DNA from: Erodium maritimum
Taxonomy: Eukaryota; Streptophyta; Magnoliopsida; Geraniales; Geraniaceae
Length of the DNA: 64,000 nucleotides
Direction of reading: 5' to 3'
Assembly (NCBI GenBank): GCA_963921825.1
Contig: OY997594.1
Span: 28,130,956 to 28,194,955, forward strand
The position numbers and the translations under genes were made by a program. Shown piece after piece: positions 3,256 to 51,999 of the stretch. The stretch's first letter is position 1; each line of letters opens with the position of its first letter. Below the pieces are notes generated by a model. That model did not search any database, was not told the DNA's origin, and worked only from the letters and a program-made list of their open reading frames with translations.

Positions 3256-3295
3256 TATGGAGAAACCAAATAACAACATATAAATGGTAAAAAGA

Positions 3296-6394: not shown

Positions 6395-6404
6395 AACCAT
6401 ATAA

Positions 6405-7557
6405 TTTTTTTTCAAATAAAGATTCATTAATCATAATAAACCTTACAAACCATACGAAACAAAGCCTTGCATCCACTGATCGTTTTCGAGAACCCGAGAA
6501 ACGATTAGTGAGATGATAACTCTCGACACAAAGCGACACAACGCCTAGATAACCAACGATCAGGTCGGTCTTTCTTATCGACGGTCCGGAAAGAACCGTC
6601 AATGGAAAGACCCAACCGACCACGCCACCAAAGGTAGAAACCACAACTAGCGGGGACTCATTAGTTAAAGACAAGTCTTTGACGACGATGTTCCGATAGG
6701 CGAGACTTTGAGGAAAACAAAACAGCAGTACAAAGCTACTTAACAAAATAACAACAATATCGAATCTGAAGCAACTCATGGCCAGCCTTCGATGGTCGAG
6801 GCTAAGGTCGAAGCGAGCGGGGGGGTGGACGGCGTCGACATTACAGATCTGATTCGCTTGGGGTGATTGCACGAGACTGACCGGGTGAGCACTGTAAAAG
6901 CAGGAGCATAGCTCGGACTGCGACACTCCGACGGACGATGGGAACAGATCTGCATGTCTGGTCGTAAAAAGTAACATGATAGAGAGAGTCGTCCAAAGTT
7001 GTTCAGGTCGACCTTGTCGACGAAAGCTGAGGTCAAAAGGGTGGAGTTGGTTGCCGGCCGTCGTCGTCGGGGGAGGCCGAAGGAGGGGTTTTGTCGGAGT
7101 GGAGTTGGGTGGGGACGGGTCTACCGAACAGGGATGAAGGAGGGTGGTGGGAGACAGAGCTGGCCAGTAGGGGAGTGGGTGATGGAAGATCTGTCCGGTG
7201 GGGGTGGATGGTGGCAGATCTGGCCAGTGGAGAGCGGTTGGTGGAAGATATTGACGGAGGACGGCCGGGAGAGGTGGAGCTGGCCCGAGAAGGACAGAGG
7301 ACGGCCGGGAGAGGTGAAGCTGGCTAGTGGAGTACGGCGGCGGAACAGGTGTGGTGACGAATGGTGTTGACAGCGGGCAAGAAGGCGAGGAGCATGAGAG
7401 GAACAGAAACCAGACGACGGTAGGGAGAGGTTGTCGGCTTTCATGACCGTCGACGGCGGCGACACAAGGAATGAGAAGTATAAGAGGTTTAGTGTTTTCG
7501 CAGAGAGAGAACGTCTGTTTTTCTAACAAGATAATTTTAGTTCTTTGCACAATTTAC
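6405..7557 (-). mobile_element. Short LINE-like retroposon with poly(A) tail and 10-bp target duplication
   Basis: On the minus strand the element begins at 7557 and ends in poly(A) (T run 6405-6412). It is flanked by AACCATATAA at 6395-6404 and 7558-7567. The sequence before the tail, ATTAATGAATCTTTATTTG, follows the tail style of neighbouring LINE copies. A chance 385-codon open frame spans most of it, but composition (Pro/Ser/Leu rich) and lack of domains argue against a protein. A 40-bp unit is duplicated in tandem at 7253-7292 and 7293-7332. It inserted into the end of the Copia fragment. Confidence 0.8.
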
Positions 7558-7605
7558 AACCATATAAGATTTCCAAAAATGTCATATGTGATACTGATAG
7601 GCATT

Positions 7606-8121
7606 GTTGTAAAAGTCCCCGCCTAGGCCCTAAAATCTGTAAAAACACCCGACTCGCCGTCCCGCCTAGGCCCCACAATATGAAAACCATCGTACTCGCA
7701 GTCCCGTTAGATTAGTCGAAAACTTGGGACTCTAGTTTGTGAAATTGGACATTTGAAAAAGATTTGAAAAGTTGAGAGAGACAATATGTTTGTAATGGTC
7801 TTTAATTTCTTGATAAAAAGAATATGGAACGTGTCCCTATTTGGTGGTTTATCATTATAATTTAGATTTTTACTAAAATAAAGAGTAAAATCAAAATAAG
7901 AGCATTATTTGGTTTAGTTTTTTTGTATTTTATTACTTGATATTTTTTTTATATTATACAAATATAGTATATATTTTGAATTTTTTATTAAATTTGTGTA
8001 ATATATATTTATTAATAATTAAAAATATTAAAAAAAATTAAATCCGTTTAGGCCTCGACTAATCCCCGCTTAATGTTCAAGGGTCCTCACCGCCCGATTA
8101 GCGCCTTACGCTTTTTACAAC
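7606..8121. mobile_element. Non-autonomous DNA element with GTTGTAAAA ends
   Basis: The left end GTTGTAAAAG and right end CTTTTTACAAC are inverted copies. Inside both ends lie CCTAGGCC-type and CCGCCCGATTAGCGCC-type motifs, while the middle is AT-rich. A shorter relative lies at 33416-33568 with the same inner motifs. No clean target duplication is visible, so the superfamily (hAT is possible) is open. Confidence 0.55.
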
Positions 8122-8148
8122 CATGCTGATAGGTCGTTGCGCGTATTT

Positions 8149-9377
8149 TTTTTTTGAGAAGAAATGGTAATATTCATTAATAATAACTTAACTCGGGGAC
8201 CCCACAATGGGGTGTCGCCGTACATAAACCAAACTGGAATAATTGAAAAACAAGTGCATAAAGAGTAAATGTGCTCATTAGCATAATAGTAGGTCGGGGA
8301 TTTGGGACTGCGGTAGCATCCGGAGATACCGATACAGTGTACGCCAACCAAAGGAACTGATCGAGCAGACCAGACGATAGGTAAACAGTGGTGGACCAAT
8401 TACTCCCCCGGTATGTCAGCGTGCGTCGTCCTCCCTTGACTGATAATGGTAGGGCTCCTGAACGCGGGATTGTTGACTCCGAAGTGGTAGGAGAGTAACA
8501 TAACGACTGTTGGTGGTACCCTTGCCACCTATACACCAGGGAGGAGGCACAATCGACCAACCTCTCCCTGGCCATCCCAGCATTCATTCCTGGAGGCGAG
8601 GGTGCTCGAAACCCCCCGCCGCTGCTGAAGACGCCCCGTCTGACGCCGCTGATTCTTCATCCTCTACTGAGTCCTCGTCTGCATCACCCATGAACCCGCG
8701 ACCCGGCTCCGGCGGTCGTTCAACCCTACCCGATTCCTCAGCCGCCACACCCTTCCCCTTCCTTCGGTGCCAAGCAATCTCTTCCGGAGTCTCCTCCGGC
8801 AATCCCTCCGATGTCAAAGTCGACCCCGAGGATATCGGGATCGGCGTCTGCTTCTCCCCCACCGACGTCTGCAGCGAGAAGCCAGCGGCGATGACCAGAG
8901 TCACCCCTACTCCCGTCTTCCTTGGCCGAGGCTCCCTCGCCGGCGTGCGACGGAGGCATGCTAGCCCCGATCGAATCCTGCCCCCCGGAACCCATCCCGG
9001 TTCCTCTCCGGCCGAGAAACACACAACCCGCACCGAGTACACGGGATCGTCCGACAGCCCCTGCGCCGCCTGCACTCCCATCCCCACCATCGCCTCCGCC
9101 AGCATCGTAGACGCAGGCAGCGGCTCCTCCTCCGGATCAGCGTCCGACCGCTCCGTGCCGGAGTCGTACTCGACGTCCGCAGCACTCCTCTCCGGTAGAC
9201 AAGGCCCCCAATGGACGCCCCCGTCATCGGCTTGCTCTCCATCTCCCTCAACACCCGGAACCTCCATGGAAGACAGATGCACTTTCGCAAAACACCAAGC
9301 CCTAGCTAAACCCTAGCAGAGAAAGCAAGGAGGCGCTGCGATACCACTCTCTCCTTTTCTTGTTCGATACGGATACT
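8149..9377 (-). mobile_element. Retroposon with intact ORF, poly(A) tail and 17-bp target duplication
   Basis: The insertion is bounded by GGTCGTTGCGCGTATTT at 8132-8148 and 9378-9394, a perfect 17-bp duplication. Read on the minus strand it starts at 9377 with a leader, has an ATG at 9267, and ends TTATTAATGAATATTACC...CTC plus poly(A) (T run from 8149). The leader contains CTCTGCTAGGGTTTAG; a similar CTCTGCTAGGGTT occurs near the 5' end of the element at 40242-42830. It is much more GC-rich than the flanks. It is either a short non-autonomous LINE or a processed retrogene. Confidence 0.85.
8584..9267 (-). CDS. Uncharacterised 227-residue protein inside the 8149-9377 retroposon
   Basis: An uninterrupted frame begins MEVPGVEGDGEQADDGG and ends AAGGFEHPRLQE. 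I chose the ATG at 9267 because it follows the element's leader; no earlier in-frame ATG is seen in the element. The protein is acidic and rich in Gly, Glu, Ala and Ser, with no signal peptide, membrane span or motif that I recognise. A second open frame in another phase follows it (8177-8587), which may mean one longer ancestral frame was shifted. It could be the N-terminal part of a LINE ORF1, a captured host exon, or a chance frame preserved because the insertion is young. Function is unknown. Confidence 0.4.
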   Translation of the reverse strand: MEVPGVEGDGEQADDGGVHWGPCLPERSAADVEYDSGTERSDADPEEEPLPASTMLAEAMVGMGVQAAQGLSDDPVYSVRVVCFSAGEEPGWVPGGRIRSGLACLRRTPAREPRPRKTGVGVTLVIAAGFSLQTSVGEKQTPIPISSGSTLTSEGLPEETPEEIAWHRRKGKGVAAEESGRVERPPEPGRGFMGDADEDSVEDEESAASDGASSAAAGGFEHPRLQE

Positions 9378-9644
9378 GGTCGTTGCGCGTATTTAAGTTA
9401 CAAGATTTCCAAAAAAATCCCTTTTATTTAATTTGAAAATCTCAAATAAAGCACGGCGTGAGGGTAGGTTGTTGCGCGTATTTAGCTTAATTCGCTGGTT
9501 CTACTCTTCACATGTTACCCACCTCACCACATTTTCCCTAATATAAAGCTCTACAACTTTCACATTGATTACTTCACAACGCACCCAATCGAACAAGAAG
9601 AAGAAGAAACCGAACCTACACCCAGATCTTGCAAACTTCAGAAT
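9378..9644 (+). promoter_or_regulatory. Promoter of the CYSTM gene: repeated CGCG boxes and TATA box
   Basis: Two near-identical 17-mers, GGTCGTTGCGCGTATTT at 9378 and GGTTGTTGCGCGTATTT at 9467, each contain GCGCGT (9385-9390 and 9474-9479). This fits VCGCGB, the CGCG box bound by CAMTA calmodulin-dependent activators. A third copy at 8132-8148 is the far target duplication of the retroposon. TATAAA lies at 9542-9547, about 100 bases before the ATG. A calcium/stress response is inferred from the motif only. Confidence 0.55.
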
Positions 9645-10746
9645 ATGAGTCACTACGATCCGAACCAGCAGCCCCCTGTCGGTGTTCCTCCTCCGCAAGG
9701 TAACAACTCACCGAATCGAGTGTTCATTGATTTGTTTTTGTTTCTGATTGTGGTTTCAAAATCTGATTTTGATTTGGATTTTGGGTACAGGGTATCCCAA
9801 GGACGCTTACCCTCCACCTGGGTACCCAGCTCAGGGCTACCCACAATCTTACCCTCCACAAGGGTACCCTCCGCAGGGAGGTTACCCTCCACAAGGGTAC
9901 CCGCCGCAGCAGCCTGGCTACGCTCCCCAGTACGCCCAGCCTCAACAGAACAACAAGAACGCTGGTTTCATGGAAGGATGGTAACCTCTAAGCTTTTCCT
10001 TGTTTCTTAAGCCCTTGTATCTGATCTTGTGCACTCTAATTAAGTTTTGTCAAAATCTGAAAAGGAAGTCACTTTTCTTGGTGGGTTTAATGAGTTTTTG
10101 TTCATCTGATCTGATTATAATCGTTCAGAATGCCTTTTGATCACTTGGTATCCAATTTTAAGTTTTAGGGTTTCATCCTCTTTCTTCATCCTATTGAAGT
10201 TATGGTTTGTTCTAATGTCAAATCCACAGAAAGTTAGAAGCCAGAGTTTCATTAGGCAGCCTATTGTATTTCAATGTATTTAGTAATTATGCCCTGTTTG
10301 GTTAGGTTATATGTCAGTGTAATTGTATTCTTATAAGACAGTCCATGCCTTAGTACTGGGTATTGTCTGGCATTGCTATGTCTTCAAGGCAAAGGAAATG
10401 TCTTTATTTATCGCTTTTGTTGATGACAGGTTGGATTTCATTGTTGAATGTGAGCTCAGACCTAATTTGATAGATATGTGACTTTAGTCTACCATATAGT
10501 GTTCTGAAAGCAAAAGAATATACCTTACCTCACATGCGTTCTGGAACATGCTCAAATTGTAGGATATATTCCCTTGAGAGCATCTTTAAATGTTTTTGTT
10601 ATTCCAATTGATCTGTCATTATGAATTCATATCTTCAACCTTGTCATTCTTTTTTACATGATCTGGTTGGCTAAATTATGTATTTTTTGTGCTTCTTCAG
10701 TTTGGCAATGCTTTGCTGTTGCTGCCTTTTGGATGCGTGCTTTTGA
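9645..10746 (+). CDS. CYSTM-type proline/tyrosine-rich small protein (WINDHOSE-like)
   Basis: Three coding exons, 9645-9699, 9791-9980 and 10701-10746, give 96 residues with GT-AG introns. The N-terminal half is proline-rich with GYPPQG-type repeats (about residues 15-70). The end reads FMEGCLAMLCCCCLLDACF, the cysteine-rich transmembrane (CYSTM) module. The last exon was found by splicing TG|T across the 720-base second intron. CYSTM proteins are short, membrane-inserted and often stress-induced. By type and place in the gene order it matches Arabidopsis At5g67600 (WIH1), which acts with WIH2 and TRN2 in megasporogenesis. The intact reading frame suggests a working gene. A retroposon has inserted about 270 bases upstream of the ATG. 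Confidence 0.9.
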
Positions 10747-11560
10747 AGAGAAGCTTTGCCGGTTCTTTGATCATGTTATTGCTTTGGAACAGCATTAGCT
10801 ATTGTGTCGATATACTGAAAAAACAATGTTGTTTTCATCTTTACTCTTTGGACCATTTTCCCTTGCTTGTGTATGAGACCATACTTTATATGCAAATGCA
10901 ATGAATGAGTTGAAGATTTCATGCCTTACATAGTTATGAACAACCCAAACTTGTGATTGTGCAACTTTGTCTTGTATTTCCTATGATTCACTATGACCAA
11001 AGTGGTGGCTTTTCTTGTTCTTGTCAAAAGTCAGATTAGTGGCAACTTGCAAGAGGTACTGTCGTCAAATAATGGAGAGATATTTGGAGCATATCCTTTA
11101 TATTACTCATCTCAGGAGAGCCTTGTTGACTCAGAGATTGAATGTGTTCATTATAATGAAACAAGAAATGAAAGGTGGAGGGACCACCTCATCTCTGCAT
11201 AATCCTTGGATGTTTCTGTTGTCAACTTGTCTGTACATTTGTTGTTGTAAGAACTTTGCAACCGTCCATCACTTCCTCAATGGGTTGAAATGGATGTGAA
11301 CTTGTGATTAACTCTACTAATTGAACCTGAGTGCTCAAAGATTTATGAAAACACACTGGTGAAACATGAAATGATATGATGTGGACATGAGAGAGACAGA
11401 GAGAGATAGAGAGAGAGCAGGTGGCTTTCTAAGAAGAGGCTCAAGGTTGCTAACAGAGACACCAATTGATTCCACAAGCTCACAAGTGTTGCTCTGAACT
11501 AAACTCTCTCAATTCATTTTCTGCCGTTTTGTTTTTATCCTATCTGTTGAAGCAATCACA
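10747..11560. other. CYSTM 3' region and intergenic DNA
   Basis: This holds the 3' UTR of the CYSTM gene and then unassigned sequence. A 69-codon plus-strand frame at 10993-11202 has no recognisable features. A short GA-rich microsatellite lies at about 11388-11418. Confidence 0.5.
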
Positions 11561-11626
11561 GACTTGCATTTATTAGCTCAGCTCTGTAGTTTTGCCGCAT
11601 ATCTCTCTAAAAAGCTAGAACCAGCA

Positions 11627-11950
11627 ATGAGTAGTGCTACTCTCAGGCAGAACCCATCTTCAACTTGGCCTCAAAGTCATGGAGTCTCCTCTTCTTCTTC
11701 ATCTTCTAGTTGGATCCACAATGAGCTGGTTTCAAGGTTTGAAGGGTTGAGATGCAAGCAGAAGAAGAAGAAGGTGATTAGGCCATGTGTGAGATGTGAG
11801 GATGGTGCAGCTCCGGCGAGAGAGAGGAGCTTTGTGGAGGCCATTAGGGAGGCTCAGCCATATATTCAGACTCACAAAGGCTCTACTTTTGTGCTTCTTC
11901 TCTCCTCTGAGCTACTTGTCTCCTCCTCTTACCTACCCACCATTCTTCAG
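11627..11950 (+). pseudogene. Orphan NAGS-like first exon (possible alternative first exon or truncated duplicate)
   Basis: From ATG 11627 the 108 codons start with a serine-rich, transit-peptide-like stretch. They then read ERSFVEAIREAQPYIQTHKG, STFVLLLSSELL and YLPTILQ. This aligns with the end of exon 1 of the downstream NAGS gene ([39 protein letters not shown]). The exon ends in phase 0 at CAG|GTACTT, a canonical donor, just as the NAGS exon 1 ends in phase 0. No second, third or later NAGS-like exon follows before 15868; two retroposons lie in between. It is either a duplicated gene that lost its other exons, or an alternative start that splices to exon 2 at 16418. The frame is open, which mildly favours function. 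Confidence 0.65.
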
Positions 11951-12274
11951 GTACTTTTTCCCTTCATTTTATTCCAACAATCAGATTAATTCAATGGTTA
12001 CTCTCATTTTTATCTAAATATCCCATTAACATCTTTCTAATTAACTAATTTTTTAGTTACAAGTATGTCAACAAAAATCTCTTCGAAAAAGAAAGTCTAC
12101 AAAAGATATAAGACAGTAGACACTAATTGGGTCGGTAGTATATCCGGATATTAATAGGGAATTTATTATATTTTATATATTTTTGACTTTTATTAAGTAA
12201 ATTGTTCATGCATCATTAAAATAAAATGATATTATATTATATCAAACTAAAATTTTCAAATAAATTAAAACATT

Positions 12275-13174
12275 TTTTTTTGAAAGGAGTATAGCTGGAT
12301 TTTATATATCAATCGGTGAGGGCATACAAATGATCCTTCACAACTTACAACCGTTGATCGCACAAGCAAAACGATAACTATTACAGACTCTAGACAAAAT
12401 AGACCATAATATTACCGACTCCTAATAATAACCTGCAACGCAACAAAATGCGCCCAGAACGTGCAACATAATCGTGCACGCCAAAAGTGCACACCAAAAG
12501 TGTCACACCAAAAGTGCCACATAACGGGCACACCAAAGTACAACCGGTGCAAACAAGCAACCGATGCACACCAAGCTGCAACAAGTGCAGTTATTCGGGA
12601 TAAACCCAACCCAACCAAACTAAAACCAAAACCTAAAATAACGAGAAAACGAAAAATATAGAAACAAACCCCACTCTAAGCTTCCTGCGAGATCAAATTG
12701 GATGCCGGAAACCAATCCCACGAGACAAACTCTGGTTTCAAACGATCACTCCGAGCAGCACCACACCGGCCGACAAGCAACGCCCACGGTAAGCACTCCG
12801 GCGACATCACCACCAAGACCAAATTTGGCAAGAGAATCAAACCTGACCGGAAAGCAGGGAACCCCCACTCCTGATGGAGACGAGAACACCGGATCGGAGA
12901 AGGAGCCGGCTATGTTTTTCACGAACCACCGAAAGGGACCGGCTCCAAGGACACGCGCCACCAGCGACTGACACGCCCACCCGAAAACCAGCGGCGGTCA
13001 GCCACCACCTCAATCCCTAGAAACGATACCGCCGTAGCCCCTTTACTCTAAAGACCACAAAAGCGGATCTCGTGAATCACCAACAGAAAAACGCAGAGAC
13101 ACACTTAGAAACGGGAGAGGGAGAAGGGAGGGTGAGGATGAAAGGGGAGGAGGCAAAAGGGAGCCCTCCGCCGA
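12275..13174 (-). mobile_element. 900-bp retroposon with poly(A) tail and 18-bp target duplication
   Basis: CAAATAAATTAAAACATT occurs at 12257-12274 and again at 13175-13192. On the minus strand the insert begins GTCGGCGGAGGG and ends with poly(A) (T run from 12275). It has no convincing coding frame. A degenerate short tandem array built on CACCAAAAGTG lies at about 12478-12540. It sits between the orphan NAGS-like exon and NAGS. Confidence 0.85.
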
Positions 13175-13290
13175 CAAATAAATTAAAACATTACTATTTA
13201 TTATGTTCACTTTTTTATTATTGAATCGGTTTGATGTTTTAAAAAAATCATCTATACGATTTGTTAGAATACTAAATTTGTCTTGACATT

Positions 13291-14935
13291 TTTTTTTGAT
13301 CAACAGGTTTTTTTTAATAATTAAAATCCAACGATTACAAATTGTAATCGGAGGGCAAGGGTCGAACCCTCAAGTTACAAACAAGAGCATCGTTAAAAAA
13401 CGACCTCGGAACAAGTCCAACAAATGGACAACCTTACAATGGTCTCAGAACCAGATATCAACTTTTAAGCAACCAGTTTTAAACGCCAACAAGGGCAACT
13501 AAAAACAACTAAACCTATTCCCAACAAGGGGAACTAAACCACAACAGTTCAGAGGTCAAAAACAAAACAGCAAATAAAAATGACATGAACTAACAGTAAA
13601 CAAGTCGGTCCACTCCCGAAACAAAACACAGGCCCAAAGCCCAACCAAGACCGGCCCAAGGCCCAGTCAAACAACACCAAATCTTTCTTCCACCTCGCGA
13701 CCCGAGCAGACCCACCCGACCAGAGTTGCAGAAGTCCACCTCAGAAGAAAAGCACCGGAAACCGTCTGACCATACCGGCCGGACCAAAACGAACTCCACC
13801 AAACCGAAGTGCCAATCCAAGAACATGAACCCAAAACAACCCCTACCCGCACCACCAGACGCACCAGAGCCACTCCTCCAACCAAAACTCCAAACCACAT
13901 CTCAACCAGCACTCAGAATAGAATCCAAATTTTTTGCACAACAATACACCCCCCCAATCTCCCAGTACCTAGAAACTGAGTAAACTAGGACGACTCATCC
14001 ATGTCCAAAAGATTCGAAACAGTTCCCACGATCCCCTATCCACAAAACTTCCCCACGTCGTTAGGCATCACCCAATATTGGCCAACACCAACGATTGGGT
14101 CTCGATCTCAACTGAGACCGAGGGGAGGAAGAAAGGCATAGATGGAAAGGTGAGAAGGATCCGATCTATTTTGGTTAGGGAGAGAAGAGTGAGCCAGATC
14201 TATTTCTCTCAAATCTCAGAAGAGATTCACCGGTGGCCTACACCAAACCGATGACCCAAGGAGAGAGGCCAGGCTCAATAGAGCCTGACGAACAGATCTG
14301 AAGAGGGTGGAGTAGAAAAGTACAAAAAAGAGGATAAATCGGGAACTTACCGAGACGAGTTGAGAAGAAGAGGCTTCAGCCACACCAGATCTGACGAACC
14401 ACGACCGAAAACCCGACCATTCCACCAAAGCCTCCACACCTAAGCCAAACGTGGCTTAAACCCTTCGCCGCTCCGACGAAGCCTGGACAACCCCGAGAAC
14501 ACAGTGAGGAAGGAGGTGGATCTGTGGCTGAGACCTCCACCGCGAGGAGTCGAGAACCAGAAAGGACGTGAAACCTAACAGTTGCCGGACCCAAAACTCG
14601 CCATCAACACAAGGGTTGAAAAACGCCCCACGAAGAACCAGAACCATCACTGCCGTTGAAAAAGTGGCTCAAAACGCCGGAAGCACAATAGATCTGAAGA
14701 GAAAACGAGATGAAAGAGAGATAACCAGTACCCACAAAGGAAGAAGGAAGGAAGAGGAAATAAGGGAAGGGGAAGGAGTGGGTAAAGGAAAGGAAGCCAC
14801 CGGCGTCGTCACCGGCTCCTGAGGAGACCGGATTCAACGCCGGCGACGGTGACAAACGAACTAGGGTTGGGAAAGTTAGAGAGAAGCGAGAGAGTTTTAA
14901 GCTAGAGAGAGAAAAATGGGGTTGATCACGTTGCA
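13291..14935 (-). mobile_element. 1.65-kb retroposon with poly(A) tail and 18-bp target duplication
   Basis: TAAATTTGTCTTGACATT flanks it at 13273-13290 and 14936-14953. The minus-strand 5' end (ATCAACCCC, then CTCTCTAG, GACGACGCCGGTGGCTTCC) and 3' end (TTGATC plus poly(A)) match the plus-strand copy at 3296-4626. Scattered open frames (for example 13590-13898 and 14604-14936) have no domain. It inserted only about 80 bases from the 12275-13174 element. Confidence 0.88.
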
Positions 14936-15439
14936 TAAATTTGTCTTGACATTGTGCATGGTAGTTAAAAGTAGAATCTAACCTTGTTAACTTTTGGTCC
15001 TCTCTTTTGTCCTGGATTCCACTTTGATTGATCTTTTACAAACTTCCAGTCACCAACGGTTCTTACAATTCTTCCCATTCTAGTTTGGTTCGTAACCGGT
15101 GTTTAGAAGTTCAACCTCTTTGTCGATGGCATCTTAGAAAGACTTGGTCCTTTTGCTATTCTCTTGAATCGATTGACAGAGTGGTTCGTTCATACATGTG
15201 CAACACGTTTTCCTTCCGTTACTTCAAATATAGCGTCGGAAATTTTGGGAGTGAGTGAGGTGGTATTTATAATAAAAATTAATGTATTATGAGGACTTAT
15301 ACTTATTTTTTCACGTGTTGGAATTTACGTGGTCTATACTACTATCTATTAAGCTAGTTGTTATTAATTCTCTTGAGCGTGGGTAAATTATCCGAACGAT
15401 GAAACCTTCGCCTGATTTTAGTAATTCGTTTGTCAAATC

Positions 15440-15605
15440 GACTGACGACAATATCACTCACAGCGCCATGGTTGGATTCTAAGGCAACACGTAGCAACGA
15501 CCCACCAAACTACGGCTTCAACGACGGCATGTCGTGACAGCAAACTGTGACAGAGCCTGCAACGACACGCAAATCACAACGCTACAACGACCGCTAGAGC
15601 TGCTC
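15440..15605. mobile_element. Terminal fragment of a Harbinger-type element
   Basis: The right end, read inward on the minus strand, is GAGCAGCTCTAGCGGTCG followed by TTGTAGCGTTGTG. It resembles the end at 45820 (GAACACCTCTGGCGGTCG) and is followed by TTA, the usual 3-bp target. The partner end was not found, so the left limit is a guess. Confidence 0.4.
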
Positions 15606-15867
15606 TTAAAACATCGGACTATATGAATCAACGTCTAGACGACCTTTAAGTATATTTTTAAAACATCCCAAAAAAGTACGACAAGTCGTGTTTGTAAACC
15701 GTATCTGTGTCCAGAGTCTGCTGTATTTGGTTTGGTGGCGCCGTCTCAAAACCTTGAAGCTGCCTGGGACCCACCATCCATGGCGGCTTCTCTGGACTTC
15801 CTTCTCTTGCCTTTCTCAAATTAGGGCTTTTCTCTTCAACACTCTCTGCTTATCCATCCCCATCTCC

Positions 15868-28499: not shown

Positions 28500-29340
28500 C
28501 CTATACGAATCAAACATTATGATGGTAAGCTTATGAGCTTGTGCTGATCAGCGTTAATATCGAACTCGACGATTCCGTCATCAATGTTAATCAGTATTAA
28601 CGTTGAACTCTTCTGGTGGTTTCGTCGCTCCTTTTGGAGTTATGGGTGTCTCTGTTGGGGGTTCTTCGGTTGAGGTATGAATAGACTGTATCGGGCTATT
28701 GAGTTTGTGGCATATCTGGCTTGAGCAGAATCGGCACGTCTTCTCTAGGGTGGTAGTTATCGAGCCAAGTATACTTCTCATCAGGGTCCAATAACGGTTT
28801 TTTCCAGTCTGAGGGTGGCCGGTCATCAATTTAGCTTCCTTAATTGGATCCAGTCTTTGGGTGTTGCAATGTCTAGGAGTTGTTGAGTTGTTGTGCTATG
28901 GTTGAGGAGTTCGGCATCTAATCTCCCGGTTCTTTCGAGTTCCTGTCCTTTTTTTCCGTTAGGTCTGGTGAGTGCTTGTTCGGGGATTGGTTTGGGGCCC
29001 CTTCCCTCGATTGGGTCTAGTGACTACTTGTTCTGGGATCGCGTTTGTGGCTGATCTATTCTTTTTGGTGGAGAGGCACGGATTACTTGATCTTTCTGAG
29101 GCCAGAAGATCCACATGTGTGGTCCCCTGTAATACTATTCACTTGTCCGGCTGAGGTTTTTCAGAACGATCCCCTGAACACTGTTCGCCAGTCAGACGGA
29201 TTTCAAGTACTTGGGAAGGATTAGGGTGGGTTTTGCTTTGTTTTGTTTTGGCTTGTTCTAACGTTTCTCTTTTATATTTATTTTTTGTTAGATTTTGGTT
29301 TGACGGTTGTGATTCCTATTCCGAGACCCACACCTCTTTT
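28500..29340 (+). other. GT-rich unassigned region, possibly a decayed retroposon
   Basis: The base composition (G and T rich, many TTGG, GGTTT and TTTTG words) and lack of frames resemble the 3' halves of the short retroposons in this window read in sense. No poly(A), target duplication or domain was found, so the call is weak. Confidence 0.25.
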
Positions 29341-29539
29341 TTCTTTAATGCATTTCTCTCTCTAAAACTTGCAAATAAAGAATATTACAAGAAAACATAG
29401 CTCCGCACATACACCCCATCGAACAGAAATTAGATTAGGAATTATGCTAGGAATTATGCTAGGAATTGCGAATGAATCCCACTCTAAAACAGAAGTTATA
29501 GGAAATAATGACCAGGTGAAACAAAAAGAGGCATTGCTC

Positions 29540-32500: not shown

Positions 32501-34543
32501 TTTGACAATTAACCCCTAAAAGAACACGACAGCACAAGAGTTCCATATCCATTAAGTTTAAGTTTTATAATACTTATTCAGTTTCCAGAATAGCATTGTA
32601 GACTTGTAGTAGACAACCATGCTTGTAATGATGCCAACCAATAGCTACATCATCTATCAATTACCTCCATTGCAAGTCCATAACTAGCTTCTGTAGGTTT
32701 GAGGCCGTTCTTCCTCAACTCCTGGAAGACCCAAGATACACCCTTCCATTGTTTGGACGGGACACAAGCATTTAGTACCTGACAACCAATTTCAAAGAGA
32801 TTAATCAATAAAATCAGTAAGCAAAATAATATAAGCAGGTAAAGGTGAAATAAGCAATAAAATCATAGTTATGCTCTCTTTGCATCTTACAGCATTGTAT
32901 ACAACAACATCAGGTTCAAGTGTGGGGTCCCAATTTCTGCGCCCCATAATTTTGGTTAGCTTAGAAGGTTTGCTCCTCATGCATTCAATAATATTAACCA
33001 ACTTTTTCAGATGACCAGCCTGACCAAGTGTGACTGCAATGCTGTGATATGCAGCCAGATCCGGATATATATAGTAATCTCCCTGAATCACCTCAGAGTT
33101 AGATGCCATCCACAATCATATCAACATTTAAAGAAAAACATAAACAAAAGTAAACAGTCTAGACTACCAGCATCAAGTTGAAGATTTGAAGAGCTTCCCG
33201 CGGCCGCCTTGCCTTCCCAAGAACTGACAAGAGTTTTGTATAAACAAACCTAAAAGAGGCAAATCAGATTCTGACAAGCCAATTCCAAAGACAGTAGTTT
33301 TAGAAAGTCCAAGCTAGAGAACTTATTTTGTGTGGATCAGTACTGAAGCTCTCTAAAGTAGATAAGCCATGAAGCATTCATGTAATAATAAAAATAGCCT
33401 ATTACAAAAAACAGTGTTCTGTAAATCCCTACCAGGCCCTGCCTAGGCCCAATTTCCTTGTTGGTCGACCCGATTAATCGCCGATTAATTCGATTAATTG
33501 CCGTTTAGTCCCGGATTAATCCCCAAAAGGCCCTAGCCGCCCGACTAGCGCCTAACAGTTTTTAGAACCTTGCAAAAAACCTTCTTATACGATCCCGTTC
33601 CATGACATGCTCAATAAGTGAAATGTGATTTTCTATGGGAGCAAGGATTGTAAGAAGAGACATGAAACCAATTCTCTCACAATGTGAATTACCTGCTCTT
33701 GAAATGCTTCTGCCGCTTGTCGGCATAGATCCACTCCACAACAGATAAGGCTTGTTTCCATCTTCCATTGTCACCAAGTCCTCCCACAATCTTGAGCAGC
33801 TGAACCTCAGTGAACTGCAGTTCAGACTTCTTCATCATCCAAGAGAACTTCCAGTCCTTTGAAGTCAACTGAGTTTCACTAAGCCTACACAAGAAGCCAC
33901 CGTAGAAACGATTTCAACAACAAATTGAATCACACAAACAACCAAAACCCAGTATAATTACAAACCTCTCAACGAGAAACTTAATGGAGTCAGTCTCGCT
34001 CCGTCTCCGCCTCCCCGGGTCCCAACTTCTCTCATCACTCTCGACCCAATCCTGCTCCAATTCAACATCGTCATCCAAGACCCACTTCAACGTATCCCGC
34101 TTCCGCTCCTCGAAAACCTCGCGAAGCTCTCTCAATTCCTCCCTCTTCAGCCTCTCTCCCAGAAACTCCTGACTTTTGATGGCCAGCTCTCTCAGCTCTG
34201 CCTTCTCCAGCCTCTCCCAGGGCATGCCCACCATCAGGTCCTTGGCGGGGTCGCATGTCTGCGACTTGACGGCCCTGGTGAAGTCCCTGTATTCGCGCTT
34301 GAGGGCCAGGAAGTGGGTCTCCTCGGCGATTTCCTGTTTCTGGGCATCGGTGAGCGGAGGGGGCTCCTTCTGGGCGAGACGATTGGCTTTGCGGTTGTGC
34401 TTCTGGATTTCTTTCTTGCGAAGGGTGTGGACGATTTTGGGAGTGGGGTGGACGCCATGTTTGAGGAGCCTCCGCTTGATCTTCTCGACGTCTGGTTCGA
34501 ACCTGGGAGATGAGAGCTGAGCTTTGGCTATTGAAGCTTCCAT
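29540..34543 (-). CDS. DG1: DG1-type pentatricopeptide repeat protein
   Basis: Eight minus-strand exons, 34543-33966, 33884-33693, 33249-33168, 33082-32891, 32778-32665, 31703-31610, 31539-30944 and 30310-29540, give 872 residues. The N-terminus carries the conserved block RRLLKHGVHPTPKIVHTLRK (about 25-45) and a charged helix-rich region to about 190. PPR repeats cover about 230-600 (for example RFVYTKLLSVLGKARRPREA, PDVVVYNAVLNACV, TINVMLKVCGRN). An acidic tail (SSSDEDEMYSDIEDSDHD) ends FFPYKLRD. By likeness and position it matches At5g67570, DELAYED GREENING 1, needed for early chloroplast development and plastid-encoded polymerase transcripts, working with SIG6. It is longer than the roughly 800 residues I recall for Arabidopsis. 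All introns are GT-AG and two hold MITEs. It is tail-to-tail with TRB. Confidence 0.93.
32154..32515. mobile_element. Mutator-like MITE with GGGTTAATTG ends in DG1 intron 5
   Basis: The inverted repeats start GGGTTAATTGTCAAAAAGTG on both sides and extend over 90 bp. CTAAAAGAA flanks it at 32145-32153 and 32516-32524 (9 bp). It lies between DG1 exons 5 and 6 on non-coding DNA and is related in its end sequence to the element at 27349. Confidence 0.88.
33416..33568. mobile_element. Short DNA element with GTTCT...AGAAC ends in DG1 intron 2
   Basis: The left end GTTCTGTAAA and right end TTTTTAGAAC are inverted. The inner motifs CTAGGCCC and CCGCCCGACTAGCGCC match those of the element at 7606-8121. 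The middle is built of repeated CGATTAAT words. No target duplication was found. Confidence 0.55.
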
Positions 34544-34912
34544 GGCTCATCAAGTACCAGAAATGGAGTTTAGGAGTGGCCGATTGGATGAGGTTTATGG
34601 TGAGGGCTTGTTTGTTTCCCTCCAATTCGTTTCTACTGATGCCTTACATGTCAAAATATTAACCTTTCTACTTGTATTTGTAAATAAGTGATAGTTGGGC
34701 TGGACAAATATTCGTCCGTCAACACAAACCACCATCCTCATTATCATGACCGGTCTCATCAACGACGGTTACGGTTACAAAACTATCAAACTAATGGTAT
34801 TTCGGGTTGGGTCGGGTTTTTTATGTTTCAAATTGGAAAAAAAAACGACCGACCGACCTTTTACTTCATGAAATCCCTCTGTCGTTGTTGTTTTTCAGTT
34901 CCCATCGCTTTA

Positions 34913-36342
34913 GAACATGTACAATGGGTCAAATCGTATATGCAAACCGTATGCCGACTGTGCAAAATAGTGGTTTGCAGTCCCTAAAATTAATTGGGAT
35001 CCACAATGGGTCAAACCGGATAGGGAACTGTATTGTGAGTGGATGCTGACTGAATGTTGAATTTGATTTTTTTTGCTTTTTTATTAAATTCTTTATAAAA
35101 ACAGTAAATGTTATTTAAATTTGACAACATTAATTAATAATAAATCAATTAATTATAACGAATATTAACACAAGTTATATAAAATGAACTTCAATTTTTA
35201 TTCCTACACCCCCAAAAAATACAAGTTCAAACATAAAATACAACTTTTTATTCATTCTTGTTGAAGCTTGGTCATTTGAGCTGCAACGTCTTCTATTCGA
35301 GCCCACAATCGAGACATCATTAATCTGTGTCGGATCAACTGATCGTCATTGTAGTTGGAGATATCCTTATCCAACAAGGCATTGTATTCTCTGAAGAGTT
35401 GATGTCATTGGTCGTTGAACTCTGCATGTTGCGTGGAAGAACAGGTAGAGGATGATCGCGACGACATACGGGTACCGTTGTTGTCGCCGATATTTTGTTG
35501 CCATGGTCGAGGATCGGGGTACCCATAGTAGTTGGGAACATGGTGGAATTGTTGTTGACCGGGATTGAATTGCGGTGGATCGGGGTTGAATTACAGTGGA
35601 TCGGGGTTGAATTGCGAGGGACCGGTGTTGAGTTGCGGTGGAACCGGGTAGCTTTGACCCGGAAATGGGTTGAATTGTTGTTGGAAATGATGGAATTGAC
35701 CTAGAAAGGGCTGGAATTGACTTTGTTGAAATTCATTTTCCAACATTACTGTTACTTCATACAAATTACAAAAATAAAAAGAAAAAAATCGAGAGTTTGA
35801 AAGTACTTGGGGAGGAAACCGGTTGCATATATGGTGTGAAATCGCTTGGGTTCGAGGAATTCTCATCGGGTTGTGTCAACATGTCGCGGAAGCTTCCAAG
35901 GTCATTGGCGGTGAATTGAAAATCTTCCGACCTCCGTTGGTCATCATCTGATGAATGAGAACGTTGAGTTTCGTCATTGGACATTTTTCGATCGGCTTTT
36001 GAGAGAGAGAAAGTAGGGAATGGGAGTGTGGAAGTGTAGAAAAATTAGAGAGTAGTAGGAGAATTGTTGTGGTTTTAGAATAGGGATGGAGATATTTATA
36101 GTGTTTAAATTCGGATATAATGAGTAAAAAAATTAAGTTACCATTTCCGACCGTTGCCAACAGTCGTATTTTTTTGCCGGCGAGTCGTAATCACGCGTCG
36201 CACGTCGCGGGTCGCGACCCCGGCCGTGATTTGACGGTTCGCGGTTCGCAAAATCAACGTCACACAACGCACTGACTCGCGAACCGCAAAAATACGGTTC
36301 GACGACGCGGTTTGCTTATGGTCCGACGCGTTGTACGTGCTC
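34913..36342 (-). mobile_element. Harbinger-type DNA transposon carrying only the accessory ORF1
   Basis: TTA flanks it at 34910-34912 and 36343-36345. The ends are imperfect inverted repeats: GAACATGTACAATGGGTC on the left against GAGCACGTACAACGCGTC on the right complement, with a second shared block GCAAACCG. A TATAAATA box on the minus strand near 36095 precedes ORF1 (ATG 35984). No DDE transposase is present, so it is non-autonomous. Confidence 0.82.
35252..35984 (-). pseudogene. Spliced ORF1 remnant of the Harbinger element (MYB-like accessory protein without its MYB domain)
   Basis: Exon 1 starts MSNDETQRSHSS and runs to PSDFTPYMQPVSSP. A short intron (GTACTT...AACAG, about 35815 to 35740) restores the frame into MLENEFQQSQFQPF and a run of QFNP-type repeats. 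The end reads EYNALLDKDISNYNDDQL and finishes KLQQE at 35252, overlapping an AATAAA signal. Two in-frame stops (about 35594 and 35403) interrupt it, and the SANT/MYB segment expected between the repeats and the C-terminal helix is missing. In PIF/Harbinger elements ORF1 is the DNA-binding partner of the transposase. Confidence 0.6.
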
Positions 36343-36724
36343 TTAGAAGATGATGGAGAATAGAATAGGGTTATAATTTTTAGGCTAGACCTAACTTAAT
36401 TAATGAGAAAGATAAATTTGTGTTAGGCCCGTTAGCAACAAGCCCACACCATCTTATGTACCGCGCGGCCCATTTTAGATAAGATAATTTATCTCGTCGT
36501 CCATATTAGGTTTTTAAACCCATCCCTTTAATTAGTTTCACCTAATTCTATATATATAGCCACTACACCCTTCCCCCTTTCTTAGTTTACACTCACTCTC
36601 AACTCTCAAACCATCATAAGATTGTTCACAATCTCAACTCATATTAATTTTAGTCAATATTATATCTGGCCCTTCTAATTATAATTTCTTCTCCTATTAT
36701 ATTTTTATTTTATTTCATGGATCT

Positions 36725-37774
36725 TTTTTTTTTTGATAAGCGATGAAATTATTATTACAGGAATCCAAGGTGGAAACCTGAAAAAAGAACCAAAACCTCG
36801 GAAGGTTACACCAAATAAAACCCTGAAAGGTCACACCTAATAAACCTCGAAAGGTTACCCATAACCCTGAAAACATAAAACACGAAAAAGCCAGCGAAAA
36901 AATAACTGAATCACCCTCGAACCTACAACCTATTCCTTCGCCGAAACAGAAATGAACTAGGAGCTGCCAACCAATGAAAGTAGTAGCCAAAGAAAATCAC
37001 CAGCCAAAGAGAAGAGGCCTGGTCTTCTCAAACACTTCAAAGCTGGATTGCACTGAGCTTCTGAAAAACCTTTTCTCTGTAACCAAAATTACCAACAGGT
37101 AACCCAACACAACAGAACTGCGCAAAAACAACTTCGTCTCTTGGACGACAATCACCCCATCACAATCCAGGAGATGATTACACCTTAGACAAAAACTAGA
37201 AAGGTAAAGAAGTAGGTAAAGAACTTCCCTCTTCTCCCTCCTCATCAGTGCAAAATTCCTCGGAGTCCTCCTGAAACTCAGGATCAACCGAATCACCCAG
37301 CTCAAAGTCTAAAGCTTCTATTTGTTCTGCAGTTTCAGGATTACCAGCAATGATTTTCTGGCTCGCTTTCATAAGTTTCCATCGTTTGTCACGATCCGCA
37401 TGCTCCTTGGCCAAAGAACATCTCCTGGCAACGTAAGATCGATATACATAATTAGGGTTACCTGATTTAAGCAAACTTCGACTGACTGAGCAATCGGCCT
37501 GAAGGGCCTAAGTCCCCCGCAACAGACTCGAAGGGCTCGGGCTACTCTGACTCTGAGATTCTACGACTTTGCTGCCCGAGGAAGGTGATGCGCACAGTAT
37601 TCCTTTATGCTTCAATACGACGGCCGGAGGTGGGAATTGAACTCTATCATTCAGACCAAGAGATTCCATGGAATTTAGCTGTTGATCTTTCAACTCCAAA
37701 GCAGATCCGATAACAGGGACCTCTAAGGTTCGACAGGCTTCAATAAGGTACCGTTTACCATCCAACAACAAGAA
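36725..37774 (-). mobile_element. 1.05-kb LINE-like retroposon with poly(A) tail and 13-bp target duplication
   Basis: ATTTCATGGATCT occurs at 36712-36724 and 37775-37787. The minus-strand 3' end is AATAATAATTTCATCGCTT, ATC and poly(A) (T run from 36725). Two frames at 37508-37771 and 37196-37474 could be pieces of one decayed ORF1; I recognise no domain. Confidence 0.85.
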
Positions 37775-37822
37775 ATTTCATGGATCTATAGCCAAACTTT
37801 AGATCCAAATTCAGAATATGTT

Positions 37823-39882
37823 TTTTTGGGGGTTAACTTCAAAAAGCCGCATAAAACTATACACGTTTATCACCTACATACCTACTTATATTTTTATTTC
37901 AGATGGCACCCCAAACTATACATTTTTTTATCACCGTTTGGTTTTCTGTCAGTTTTTCTGTTAGTTTTTTCAGAAATGACGAAAATACCCCTACCCCTAA
38001 AAACCCCAACCATGACTTTCACATAATTACGAAAATGCCATTACACATAAAATAAGAAAAATAAGAAATAAAAATTAATTTTTATTTATTATCAGAAAAT
38101 AAGAAAAAATAAATTTTTATTTATTTATTTTCAGAAAATAAGAAAAATAATTTTTTATTATTTATTTTCAGAAATAAGAAAAAATATTTATTTTTTTATT
38201 AATGTTCAAAAAATAAGGAAATAAGAAAAAATTATTTTTCACCTAAAAAAAATATTTTTTGTCTATTTTTCACAAATTATTTTTTATTTATTTTCAGAAA
38301 ATAAGAAAATGAAAAAAAATATTTTTTTATTTATTTTCAGAAATAAGAAATAATAATTTTTTATTTTATGAAAATAAATAAAAAATAATTTTTTCTTGAA
38401 ATAATTTCTGGAAAACAAACAAAAAGTATTTTTTTTAGGTGAAAATTTATTTTTTTCTTATCTTCTGAAAATAAATAAAAAATAATTAATTTTTTTCTTA
38501 TTTCCTTATTTTCTAAAAATAAATAAATGATTATTATTTTTTATTATTTCTGAAAATATATAAAAAATAAATATTTTTTCTTATTTTCTGAAATGAAATA
38601 AAAAATGATTATTTTTTGTTATTTTCTGAAAATGAATAAAAAATAATTATTTTTCTTATTTTCTGAAAATAAATAAAATTAATTTTGATTTTCTATTTTT
38701 CTTATTTTATGTGTAATGGCATTTTCGTAATTATGTGAAAGTCATGGTTGATATTAGGGTTTATAAGGGTAGGGGTATTTTCGTCATTTCTAAAAAAATT
38801 AACAGAAAACCAAACGGTGATAAAAAAATGTATAGTTTGGGGTGCCATCTGAAATAAAAATAAAAGTGGGTATGTAGGTGATAAACGCGTATAGTTTTAT
38901 GCGGCTTTTTGAAGTTATCCTTTTTTTTAACGGGTAATTGGAGACTTTCATTAATACTAAATGGTAATTAAGTACGGTGAGGCGTGACCGCCTCGGGTTC
39001 CAGATTTATGTCCGGACCGACCGTAGCAAGCCCGGCGCTCATGGACCCATAATAATAGCCCACTTTGTTTCGTGGGCACAAAACTAAGCCAACTCCTTAC
39101 TACCGTTCCAATTATTCGACCTAAAACAGCTAACGTCTCAAAACAACGAGGCTTGAAATTAAAAATCCTAAGCAACAGAATGTCTAAACAGCAAATTATT
39201 CGACCTACAACAGGATAAAAAATTAACACACGATCGAAAGAGCAAGCTACCAAATCTGCGATGCCAGTTCTTCTAGGCCCCGTGCCGTTGGAGCGATCTG
39301 GTATCGGCAAATCTTTGTCTTGATTCGCCCGGATCTTTCGAAGTAGTCCGGGAGGCGAGAGCAACGAATTGAACCGCCACGGTTTGTCCGAGATCGAGGG
39401 TCCCGACTTCGGGTGCCGTGGAGTCAGACTCCGATCTATCGTCCTTCCTCTCGGATCCCAGATCCATCTAGGGAGCAGGCCCATGCCGGCGAGGGGTGAC
39501 CCCGGGGCGGTAGGCCGCTGCAGATAGAAGGCGGCGCGTGGAGCCCGTCTTCCAGAGAACGGTAGGGGGCCCACAGTGGCTACTGGCTCGAAGGCGGGGC
39601 CGCTCCGGCGATGCAGGAACGGTAGCGCGAGACGAGGGAGAGACCGTGGCACTGATTGAACGATGGCGGCGACCTGTGCGGGTAGACCGGCTGCAAAAAA
39701 AGACAAAAACAAAAAAGTAACACCCATAAATGGGTAGAATGGACCCTGGTAGTTAGGGTAGAATGGACCCTGGTGGTTAGGATAGACGAGTGCTTTGAGT
39801 TAAGATCTTAAAGAGATTCCATGGTGAAGAAGGAGGGGGAGGGGGTGGGAGGAGAGGAGGCTGCGCAGAGAGCGCAGTCCCT
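37823..39882 (-). mobile_element. LINE-like retroposon (about 0.96 kb plus a nested MITE) with 16-bp target duplication
   Basis: AAATTCAGAATATGTT flanks it at 37807-37822 and 39883-39898. The GC-rich body (about 38921-39882) reads on the minus strand with a chance 256-codon frame, and ends ATTAATGAAAGTCTCC, ATTACCCGTT plus poly(A). A hairpin MITE has entered that poly(A) tract, so the tail is split between 38921-38928 and 37823-37827. It lies only 35 bases from the previous retroposon. Confidence 0.82.
37830..38920. mobile_element. Giant hairpin MITE (about 1.09 kb) inside a poly(A) tract
   Basis: The left arm (GGTTAACTTCAAAAAGCCGC, CATAAAACTATACACG ...) is repeated inverted from 38920 (GGATAACTTCAAAAAGCCGC, CATAAAACTATACGCG ...). 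High similarity continues over at least 230 bp per side. The centre, about 38040-38700, is A/T with self-complementary TTATTTTCAGAAAATAAG words, so nearly the whole element can fold back. The target duplication is masked by T runs on both sides. The GGGTTAAYT-style ends suggest kinship with the Mutator-like MITEs at 27349 and 32154. Confidence 0.8.
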
Positions 39883-40241
39883 AAATTCAGAATATGTTAG
39901 TACTTTGTTGGATTCTATTTTTGTTTGTATTTATAGTTTTTACGATTTTTTTTGTTAGCTATGGTTTTGCGATATAAAACTAGGTCTACTTTTTTTCGTT
40001 TTACCTTTTTCATATCTATTATGACCTTTTTTATATTTGATTTCGTTTTTTCCATTCGAATAATTGTTACTGATCAGTGATGCAACCTAAAGCTGAGATC
40101 CATGCGTTGGTTAAGTAAGTTAGATCTGAGTTTGCTTTGTCTTTGTTTGGTTTTTTCTGATTCTAATATCTTTATACATATATTTGTAGTTTGTGTTATA
40201 ATTTGATGTTTTTAACTCATACCTATGTGTTTTGCATTGTT

Positions 40242-42830
40242 TTTTGAGCGAAAGGTACGACATTTCATTAATCAAATTGTATAATAACAATAAAGTACAT
40301 CAGAGACTCTCTGACCACGAAGATTAAGGGAAGAACACTTAAGAATGTTCGCTATTCTTTTCACAGTAGAACAGTCCTCGACGGTTTTGAATTGGTGCCC
40401 CATGGGCAAGAACAGAATATGGGTGAGGGGAACGGGGTGCCGGAGATTAGAGACCTCGACGATAATGTTGATGGTGGGAGGAAAAGCATCGTCTAGGGAC
40501 CCTGTTAGTCTTAGTGTTAGTCTTAGTGCCCGTAGTTCAATCCTAAATGTCCAAATGTACATATCATCGTTAGCAATAAAATTAAAGCGGCTTTATATTA
40601 CTTATGTGTTGGAGTAATATATCGACGTGTGCTCTGATCTATGCCCACCATGCGAATAGAACCATAGATCGAGATAGATCACACTCGATGGGTCCCTAGT
40701 CAACAAAGCTTCACTAGAAGCGACTAGTATGAAAAATGGCTCTTTATGGCTTACGTTCTATTAGTCATTGGAATGGGATTCCGGAGTCTGATCATAGATA
40801 TCATGTGGGACATGATATTGGACGACCCTCCCTGAATATGTGCCATAGATTAAGTCATGAACATATTCAGTGTTGTAGCTTGTCATGTATCCTTAGACCA
40901 AGGAGTCTTTGTGATCGCTATGTAGTCAACAACTGAGTTTGACCTGAGCCTAACGTTGTCCGTAACAGGGCTTCCATAACGGCCAGGATTGGCTTGGGGA
41001 CGGGCTACATGAGTGACACGAAAGACGGCTAAGGGATTTATCCCTCATACTAAGGTATGGGAAAGATATCGGTTCTCGGCCGCTTGATCGAGAGTGACTG
41101 AAAGAATAGCATGGCCATGCACATGATACTGGGTATCATATCTTTAGTCATCTCACATATCAAGGAACATTGATTGAGAATAATAAGGATGACGGCTCTA
41201 TGCCTTATCTCAATCAGGATATCGGAGATAAAAGGATAATGACAGGGACGACGGAAAGGTTAGAATCGATAGGGTCGATTCGTTATGTAGTGTCAGGCAA
41301 TACTAAAGTCTCGTTAGTTGCCACTTAAATAGGATCAAGTAAAATGGGATTTTACGTTGATCTATTGACATGCATAAACCTAAGGGTCACACTGGAGGAT
41401 GAAACTCATTGACACATTTATGGAGAATGGCCAAAAGGGAGTTGTCTCGGGACATGACCAAAACTGGGTTTTGGGTCATGTGCCCGTACGTGAATAGGAC
41501 TTTACGGATCGAGACAAGGCTTGGAGTCTTGGGATTGATCGCGTCGGATAATGTTGGACATTTCCGGTATGGAAGGCTTGGAGGCGATGAGCGAATCACG
41601 GGACCTCGTTAGAAATGGCCACAAGCCATGTTCCAAGAGGCCCATGAAAGGCCCATGCAACCAAGGCCTATAGAACTAATTAATCAAGTCTTGATTAATT
41701 AGTACTAAGTAAGCAAGACAAGGATTAAGGTGTTGGTGATTCACCACCTAACCCAATCTTGTCTTGCCATACTTTGTCCTATTTACACCTTACTTGACAC
41801 CATACTTGTCCCATGCCTTTAGTTGGAAAAGTATGGGTTTTGTTATGTTTAATTCATCTTTTTTCAACATAACAAACACAAGACAAGAATAGGAAACACA
41901 TTTTCTCTCCCTCTTCCATGGCCATTTCGGGTTTGGCTAGTTTCCACCTCCATGTTTGTGTTCTTGAGTCCTCAAAGAGAAGAACTACGTGGCTTTGATT
42001 CCCATGTGGATACGTAGGCGTCTTGGAGACTCAAGCCAATCATTCGTTAACCGGTGTTCTTGTTTTGGTAAGAACTAGTGCTGAATTTTTCTCTTGTGAA
42101 TCCATTCTTTGTTAGTTGTTTCATGGTTTTAATCGTCTCTTGGTTTTCATTGATTTTCCGCTGCGAGTTGGTTCATCTCCAACCCTACCTCGAGACCCAA
42201 CAGACCCCTCTCAGGGCCAGTCCCAGATGCTCCCATCCCTATGAGAAGGACGCGTCGGCTGCGGCTGCAGATCCAGCGGCGACGACTTAAGGGGCGACTC
42301 TAGAGATGGCGGCGGCATCCGAGACGGCGGCGACATCAGAAGAGGCGACGACGGCGGCTTCAAAGGTGGCAGCAGCTGTAGAGACGGAAACCCCCAGGGC
42401 GGCGGAATCAGGCGTGCGTCAGGGGTGGCGACAACGACTGTAGAGGCGTCGACGGCTTCAGGCGGCTTGAAGGGTGGATGACGTCGAGGTGAGCCAAACA
42501 AAAAGCATCGGGATTGTAGAGGGGGACCGAACAGGATCAGTAGGCGCGTCGGTGGTGGTGGGGGAGAGTCCACGGCGCGGTGGCTAGCGGCGACCCAAGA
42601 GGAACCCTAGCAGAGAAAAACTCGTGCAAGCCCGAGAGGAACCCTAACAGAGAAAACTCACGCAGGATTCAAAGGGGATGTGCCGAGGAGATGGTGGATA
42701 AAGAAGAGAAGAAAAACCATGACATAGGCTATAGCAATTGTTATAGCCATAACCATGGTGGTGTGTACGACGGCAGAGGCTCAAAACCCTATCAGAGTTT
42801 AAAATAGTTATGTATATGAATAGTTATATT
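40242..42830 (-). mobile_element. LINE-like retroposon (about 0.88 kb net) split by a solo LTR, 16-bp target duplication
   Basis: TGTGTTTTGCATTGTT occurs at 40226-40241 and 42831-42846. The minus-strand 5' part is GC-rich (42203-42830, with a CTCTGCTAGGGTT motif near 42600) and the 3' part, 40242-40497, ends ATTAATGAAATGTCGTACC, TTTCGCTC and poly(A). The junction sequence CTAGGGACCCCTCTCAGG, once the LTR and one GACCC are taken out, matches CATCGTATAGGGACCCCTC at about 49841 in the LINE at 49591-51995. Confidence 0.85.
40503..42202 (+). mobile_element. Solo LTR of an LTR retrotransposon (1.7 kb)
   Basis: It starts TGTTAGTC, ends CCCAACA and is flanked by the 5-bp duplication GACCC at 40498-40502 and 42203-42207. 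No internal domain remains, which fits recombination between two LTRs. Family is not certain. It is younger than the retroposon that it interrupts. The strand is arbitrary, since both ends are TG...CA. Confidence 0.8.
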
Positions 42831-42846
42831 TGTGTTTTGCATTGTT

Positions 42847-51995: not shown

Positions 51996-51999
51996 GTTT

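Follow-up and report, generated by a model that had tools for sequence, protein, structure and literature searches.

A 64,000-nt window of the Erodium maritimum genome (GCA_963921825.1, contig OY997594.1:28130956-28194955; 763 Mb in 40 contigs) contains seven short elements, here called A to G, that end in poly(A), are flanked by target duplications and all lie on the minus strand. What are such elements, and how were they inserted? A sequence-only reading of the window had taken them for 5'-complete retroposons with clean duplications and no reverse transcriptase (RT), and had suggested that the machinery of long interspersed nuclear elements (LINEs) mobilised them. We find its observation partly confirmed and its interpretation partly supported. 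Very probably, judging from the sequences, the elements represent several non-autonomous families of 0.9-1.8 kb, mRNA-like in build, which would be inserted by target-primed reverse transcription (TPRT) with proteins of L1-clade LINEs. Behind this reading stand 5' starts that are fixed, tails of poly(A), target duplications, nicks at T|AA and a common 3' ending, together with the ancestry of B and E in open reading frame 1 (ORF1) of L1 and the many LINE candidates in the genome.

Short families with fixed 5' starts

To place the insertions on a quantitative footing, all 174 A/T runs of at least 6 in the window were scanned for duplications with exact seeds, and the scores were compared with a random-position control. 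At a score of at least 13 there are six matches, where random positions would give 0.575 per 174 runs, and they are exactly B (8149-9377; duplication 17 bp), C (12275-13174; 18 bp), D (13291-14935; 18 bp), E (36725-37774; 13 bp), F (38921-39882; 16 bp) and G (40242-42830; 16 bp). Lowering the score to at least 11 yields 15 matches, where the control averages 3.45 and never exceeds 7, the nine additional ones scoring only 11-12. Element A (6408-7520) escaped this exact-seed scan, and its target repeat is imperfect (15/17). All seven are real retroposons, as claimed, six with exact duplications of 13-18 bp; the description of the duplications as clean is right for these six but not for A, to which a clean 10-bp repeat had been assigned. 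The claimed net lengths of 0.9-1.65 kb also hold on remeasurement: 1113 nt for A, 1229 for B, 900 for C, 1645 for D and 1050 for E, with F at about 960 nt once an inserted miniature inverted-repeat transposable element (MITE)-like sequence is subtracted and G at about 885 nt without a nested 1.7-kb solo long terminal repeat (LTR). A Pfam scan of eight open frames of A-F returned no RT and no domain over the cut-off, in agreement with the claim that RT is lacking. At the DNA level A to G have no mutual similarity, and the only pair alike is D and a plus-strand relative, D' (3297-4614, core from 3315), for which we recognised no duplication by eye. The two had been reported to share both ends, and they do: their 5' ends are 67% identical across 174 nt, and both tails read GATC-A(n).

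Each element was then used as a query on the whole genome, with at most about 40 candidates scored apiece, such that the family counts given here are samples and the first-look candidate numbers per family search (271 to 3984) should not be read as numbers of copies. For F, 28 of 40 scored loci span the query unbroken from position 1 at 85-100% identity, and its 27-nt start motif occurs at 139 genomic places with at most 3 mismatches (reversed control, 0). Starts are similarly sharp for G, where 37 of the 39 other matches begin at 28-37, and for D', where 11 of the 15 best non-self matches begin at 19-40. Long copies of D begin at 22-42, apart from one at 258 that is unexplained and two D-group copies starting at 216, which have a different head with a common start of its own at 54-57. 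Three other copies of B are near full length at 98%, and B relatives with resolved duplications measure 1.17-1.32 kb. Thus B, D, F, G and D' are short families with fixed starts, the fixed 5' ends proposed for the window being found genome-wide. A is probably a member of such a family as well: its 3' part (437-1113) is common to many short relatives, and its resolved relatives, 1.0-1.54 kb long with one cut to 0.6 kb, have the 3' 650 nt in common, but its own start is common to two relatives only. One A-group copy (L017, C1:13364991-13368663) carries about 280 nt of foreign DNA ahead of the usual start, within an apparent duplication.

The claim of 5'-completeness stands for B, D, F and G, and probably for A, but is contradicted for C and E. 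Sequence common to copies extends upstream of both window elements (as read across the junctions in three copies of C and four of E, in none of which a duplication was resolved), and therefore C is about 75 nt short at its 5' end and E is truncated. The notion that all seven are ordinary 5'-truncated LINEs is accordingly true in kind for E and could be extended to C, which lacks its first 75 nt or so. As an account of the whole set it is quite improbable, because starts are fixed, and F contradicts it with 139 shared ones. RT-region protein similarity was found in 3 of 68 A-, B- and D-group loci, never inside or directly before the matched part, and at two sampled loci with the 3' part of D only (L121, L122) no RT was seen upstream.

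F is non-coding. Its variable columns fall 42, 26 and 30 by phase (p 0.12), giving no codon periodicity, although the first 90 columns taken alone are uneven (10, 1, 14; p 0.005); among 20 trimmed copies, indels number 7 multiples of three against 36 others, and none of the 20 has a full-length frame free of stops. Processed pseudogenes of host genes would likewise have poly(A) and duplications, and no parent is known for A, C, D, D' or F, but subfamilies of many copies, 70-98% identical and with ends that are fixed, eight frames without a Pfam domain over the cut-off and the missing periodicity of F make such an origin barely credible.

L1 ancestry and a proposed role of LINE machinery

If the short elements are not truncated LINEs, where do they come from? 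For B an answer can be read from longer relatives. In 13 of 30 B-group loci, none with a duplication in reach, the shared part is preceded by a sense ORF1 similar to the ORF1 of a further window element, H (49595-51996, minus strand); these 13 match the 3' 500 nt of B at 89-93%. DUF4283 is over the cut-off in all three of the B-relative ORF1s tested (E 5e-15 to 5e-14). About 420 nt separate the stop of ORF1 from poly(A), which leaves no room for ORF2. In ten loci, namely nine of the 13 and L066 (alike in DNA, though it gave no ORF1 match), variable columns number 88, 83 and 158 by codon position, gaps are multiples of three in 28 cases against 9 others, and in four of the ten the frame runs 526 codons without a stop, up to the edge of the locus. 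B itself has a 227-aa frame that matches ORF1 residues 13-77 and, separately, the C-terminal part of ORF1, and since two separate parts are matched B is read as an internally deleted ORF1-only element. On this sequence evidence, B descends from abundant ORF1-only L1-type elements with a constrained, sometimes open ORF1. The 5' ends of the 13 relatives (within L043-L065) lie beyond the loci examined.

E belongs to another ORF1-only L1 line, as a 5'-truncated derivative without most of ORF2. Upstream of one copy lies an L1-type ORF1 (DUF4283 E 1e-4, RRM E 0.12, both below cut-off), and in six of six relatives ORF1 continues into MVKFISWNVRG-like sequence, which we take to be the start of the L1 endonuclease. 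Changes in these relatives number 415, 450 and 880 by codon position, and one of them, read by eye, has about 50 recognisable ORF2 codons before the 3' untranslated region is reached within about 500 nt. H, with zf-CCHC_4 over the cut-off and DUF4283 below it, is the third ORF1-only element; it was absent from the sequence-only reading, and no duplication was found for it. It ends in AATAATATTGCACCTTTTGTT-A(n), similar to the end of a plus-strand LINE fragment at 1-1650 (LINE1; zf-RVT, RVT_3, poly(A)). The 3' 205 nt of G match H at 64% identity with a score of 41, where 60 block shuffles gave at most 16, and G is thus probably of L1 descent, by way of this 3' part. A close relative of H (63% in protein) also lies antisense beside the only near full-length A relative, in the flank of L010 (C1:133288737-133292849).

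The insertion signature was read from 44 resolved copies of the A, B, D and F groups with duplications of 13-23 bp, the lower limit being our threshold. Before the nick the letter is T in 66% and C in 27%, and AA follows (A at +1 in 82%). TC stands before poly(A) in 31 of the 44, and AATNA within 36 nt in 39. RT-bearing LINEs have a similar terminal motif: among eight LINE 3' ends a poly(A) tail was found in seven, five of them from one LINE group, and all seven have TC before the tail and a TTAATAA-, TTAATACA- or TATAAA-like signal upstream, as regards TC also one of the two window LINEs. Such LINEs are plentiful, since all 150 scored places were over the cut-off for zf-RVT among 12,902 first-look candidates. 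LINE-type insertion, as first proposed, is thus borne out by poly(A), duplications, nick and 3' ending. That longer LINEs would share these tails proved true of the 13 longer L1-type relatives of B, but these have ORF1 rather than RT, and between the short families and RT-bearing LINEs the 3' likeness is the terminal motif alone. The shared features suggest that L1 machinery acts in trans; L1 proteins so borrowed are the simplest reading of a step that we infer.

Several points weigh against it. The nick letters are partly forced by stretching the duplication into the A run, and F and LINE1 in the window end in TT rather than TC. Ten RT-bearing LINE ends compared with the families gave no convincing body similarity, only three weak matches (E 0.009). 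The ORF1 search of the 68 A-, B- and D-group loci found no sense match overlapping the matched part of any locus, and the L1 ancestry of A, C, D, D' and F was not traced, the ORF1 and RT locus searches having covered the A, B and D groups.

With these points in view, we picture insertion with borrowed L1 proteins as follows. The short elements would be transcribed, presumably by RNA polymerase II, and polyadenylated like mRNAs; TPRT would then proceed with proteins supplied in trans by L1-clade LINEs of the host genome, and the 5' end of the cDNA would usually be joined to the target via a short copy-specific patch. At least B, E and probably G would have arisen by stepwise loss from L1, ORF2 going first, with most of ORF1 lost in a further step in B, and we would extend the same origin to A, C, D, D' and F.

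Copy-specific sequence at the 5' junction

Closer inspection of the junctions reveals a detail that the sequence-only reading missed: how can copies with a common start differ in what precedes it? Between duplication and start, 34 of 44 copies have 9-58 nt of copy-specific sequence. These 44 (15 F and 29 A, B or D copies with a definable start) are not the 44 of the nick analysis. Left out were 31 of the 68 A-, B- and D-group loci without a usable duplication (among them the 13 ORF1 carriers), 8 of the 37 resolved ones that are truncated or whose start no close relative fixes (L009, L015, L017, L023, L029, L032, L037, L038), four F loci of 20 in which there is no duplication, and L088, whose start is rearranged; the starts of L052, L054, L064 and L067 depend on alignments of about 72%. 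In the window the extra measures 35 nt in B (9343-9377, core to 9342), 30 nt in G (42801-42830, core to 42800) and 20 nt in D (14916-14935, core to 14915), and F has none. A genome search with the B extra matches its own site only. Fourteen long extras all found their own site and three of them one additional place, while 11 shorter ones found their own site in three cases and nothing else, such that 3 of 17 searchable extras have a second match, each at an unrelated locus. For L067 this place reads as the 3' end of an open frame, in sense and including its stop; for L074 and L040 it is other DNA. No family copy lies beside any of the three, with 1.4-1.7 kb downstream examined. The extra of L041 (C6:4476752-4480935) contains an inverted repeat, CTCCA...TGGAG.

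That the extras arise by template switching onto another RNA, or as repair filler, is to our minds an evenly balanced proposition, and with three donors only it is a lead. Transcription beginning upstream, in the flank of the parent, has been proposed for full-length human L1 (PMC2912911) and would make the extras 5' transductions, which we consider somewhat unlikely here. Consistent with transduction, L018 and L026 both have ACCAGACGAACC as an inherited piece ahead of the start they share, many F extras end in AAACCCTA, and second matches for only 3 of 17 findable extras mean that most parents or donors are unseen. On the other hand, none of the three second matches adjoins a family copy, the donor matches only part of the extra of L040 (43 aligned nt, including the junction), and L056, L061 and L068, about 95% alike, have unrelated extras, as do the close copies L039, L040 and L041. 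Because extras are unrelated among close copies and donors do not lie beside the family, switching or filler is favoured over transcription from a parent's flank. Copying from the target neighbourhood is improbable. Among the 22 non-F extras tested, the longest match falls within the copy's own flanks in three (L006, L013, L052), where about 0.9 would be expected, and not in the other 19; as a general source, local filler is rejected and would account for a minority at most.

A tentative extension, which we hold possible but would not favour, would join template switching or filler with L1 descent in a three-level L1 system of RT-bearing LINEs, constrained ORF1-only half-LINEs and short derivatives, with routine capture of RNA or DNA of unrelated origin; most copies would then be chimeras, one of them with a scrap apparently taken, in sense, from a coding gene at its 3' end.

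Relation to known elements, orientation and neighbours

The half-LINEs of mammals, HAL1, offer one comparison: the parents of B, the E family and H keep ORF1 without ORF2, as HAL1 does, and ORF1 is under constraint without ORF2 in the parents of B and in the E family. The plant ORF1 differs in having DUF4283 and a zinc knuckle, and E relatives retain about 50 ORF2 codons. The ORF1-only L1 derivatives found here connect LINEs to short retroposons, and make it possible to test directly what the ORF1 protein and the common 3' ending do and how the 5' extras originate.

In form the families are closest to Sadhu of Arabidopsis, described in the parts of the account available to us as about 0.9 kb long, with poly(A), 7-16 bp duplications, a T|A nick, a polypyrimidine start and presumed LINE-driven mobility; its authors predict that relatives could be recognised elsewhere by their form (Rangwala and Richards 2010; PMC2848041). 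F (about 900 bp, poly(A), duplication, non-coding) fits well, whereas other families exceed this length and B retains a remnant of ORF1; the nick letters of our 44 copies resemble the Sadhu nick as given there (PMC2848041). The Sadhu 5' motif CAATCGTTSC is absent, the best match in 11 cores having 3-4 mismatches, and therefore we call the families Sadhu-like by form and claim no membership. Where the available text describes Sadhu as a small Brassicaceae family of 39 sequences and in those parts makes no mention of 5' extras, here several unrelated Sadhu-like families occupy a LINE-rich genome, F alone having 139 start places (PMC2848041). B and E, unlike Sadhu, have traceable L1 parents. A literature search, with most subscription journals outside it, found neither such families outside Brassicaceae nor ORF1-only plant LINEs.

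SIDEs (Persaeus/Zenon, TbRIME, R2 SIDE) are portrayed, in the sections at hand, as short internally deleted non-LTR elements that borrow the machinery of a partner (PMC6740152). Ends taken from a longer element by internal deletion are found in B and E, and probably in G by its 3' part only; A, C, D, D' and F have no found parent. As far as those sections go, the present case also differs in concerning the L1 clade in a plant, with immediate parents found that have ORF1 and no ORF2. Extra nucleotides between duplication and 5' end are known from LINE insertions and are host-dependent; the excerpts available report them for 12.4% of full-length Alu copies and, as 'several', for about half of ZfL2-2 insertions (PMC4245944, PMC2912911), compared with 34 of 44 copies with 9-58 nt here. 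In contrast to short interspersed nuclear elements, no tRNA-, 7SL- or 5S-derived head was met in the window (ARAGORN 0, Rfam gathering matches 0), though strongly decayed heads could escape such searches.

Does the common orientation of the seven carry meaning? All seven are indeed on the minus strand (p 0.016), and with D' and H counted the short elements stand at 8 minus to 1 plus (p 0.039), which a local strand preference would explain. With LINE1 and LINE2 included the count is 9 to 2 (p 0.065), D' and LINE1 being plus, and the F start, the one family for which strands were summed, is balanced genome-wide at 66 forward and 73 reverse. Chance suffices, the bias is not a family property, and the significance first attached to it falls away; a local preference is highly improbable.

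Two of the seven have been interrupted. The MITE-like inverted-repeat insertion (37831-38920; arms 37831-37957 and 38794-38920, 95% alike; centre AT-rich and repetitive) lies in the poly(A) tail of F, whose outer tail is at 37823-37830, and the solo LTR in G (40503-42202), read by eye, is bounded by TG...CA and a 5-bp duplication, GACCC. LINE2, with RVT_1 and a tail of CTGTC-A(n), lies on the minus strand at 55122-57980. Between 11630 and 20000 are two neighbouring genes whose starts we take to be N-acetylglutamate-synthase-like, and C and D lie between them.

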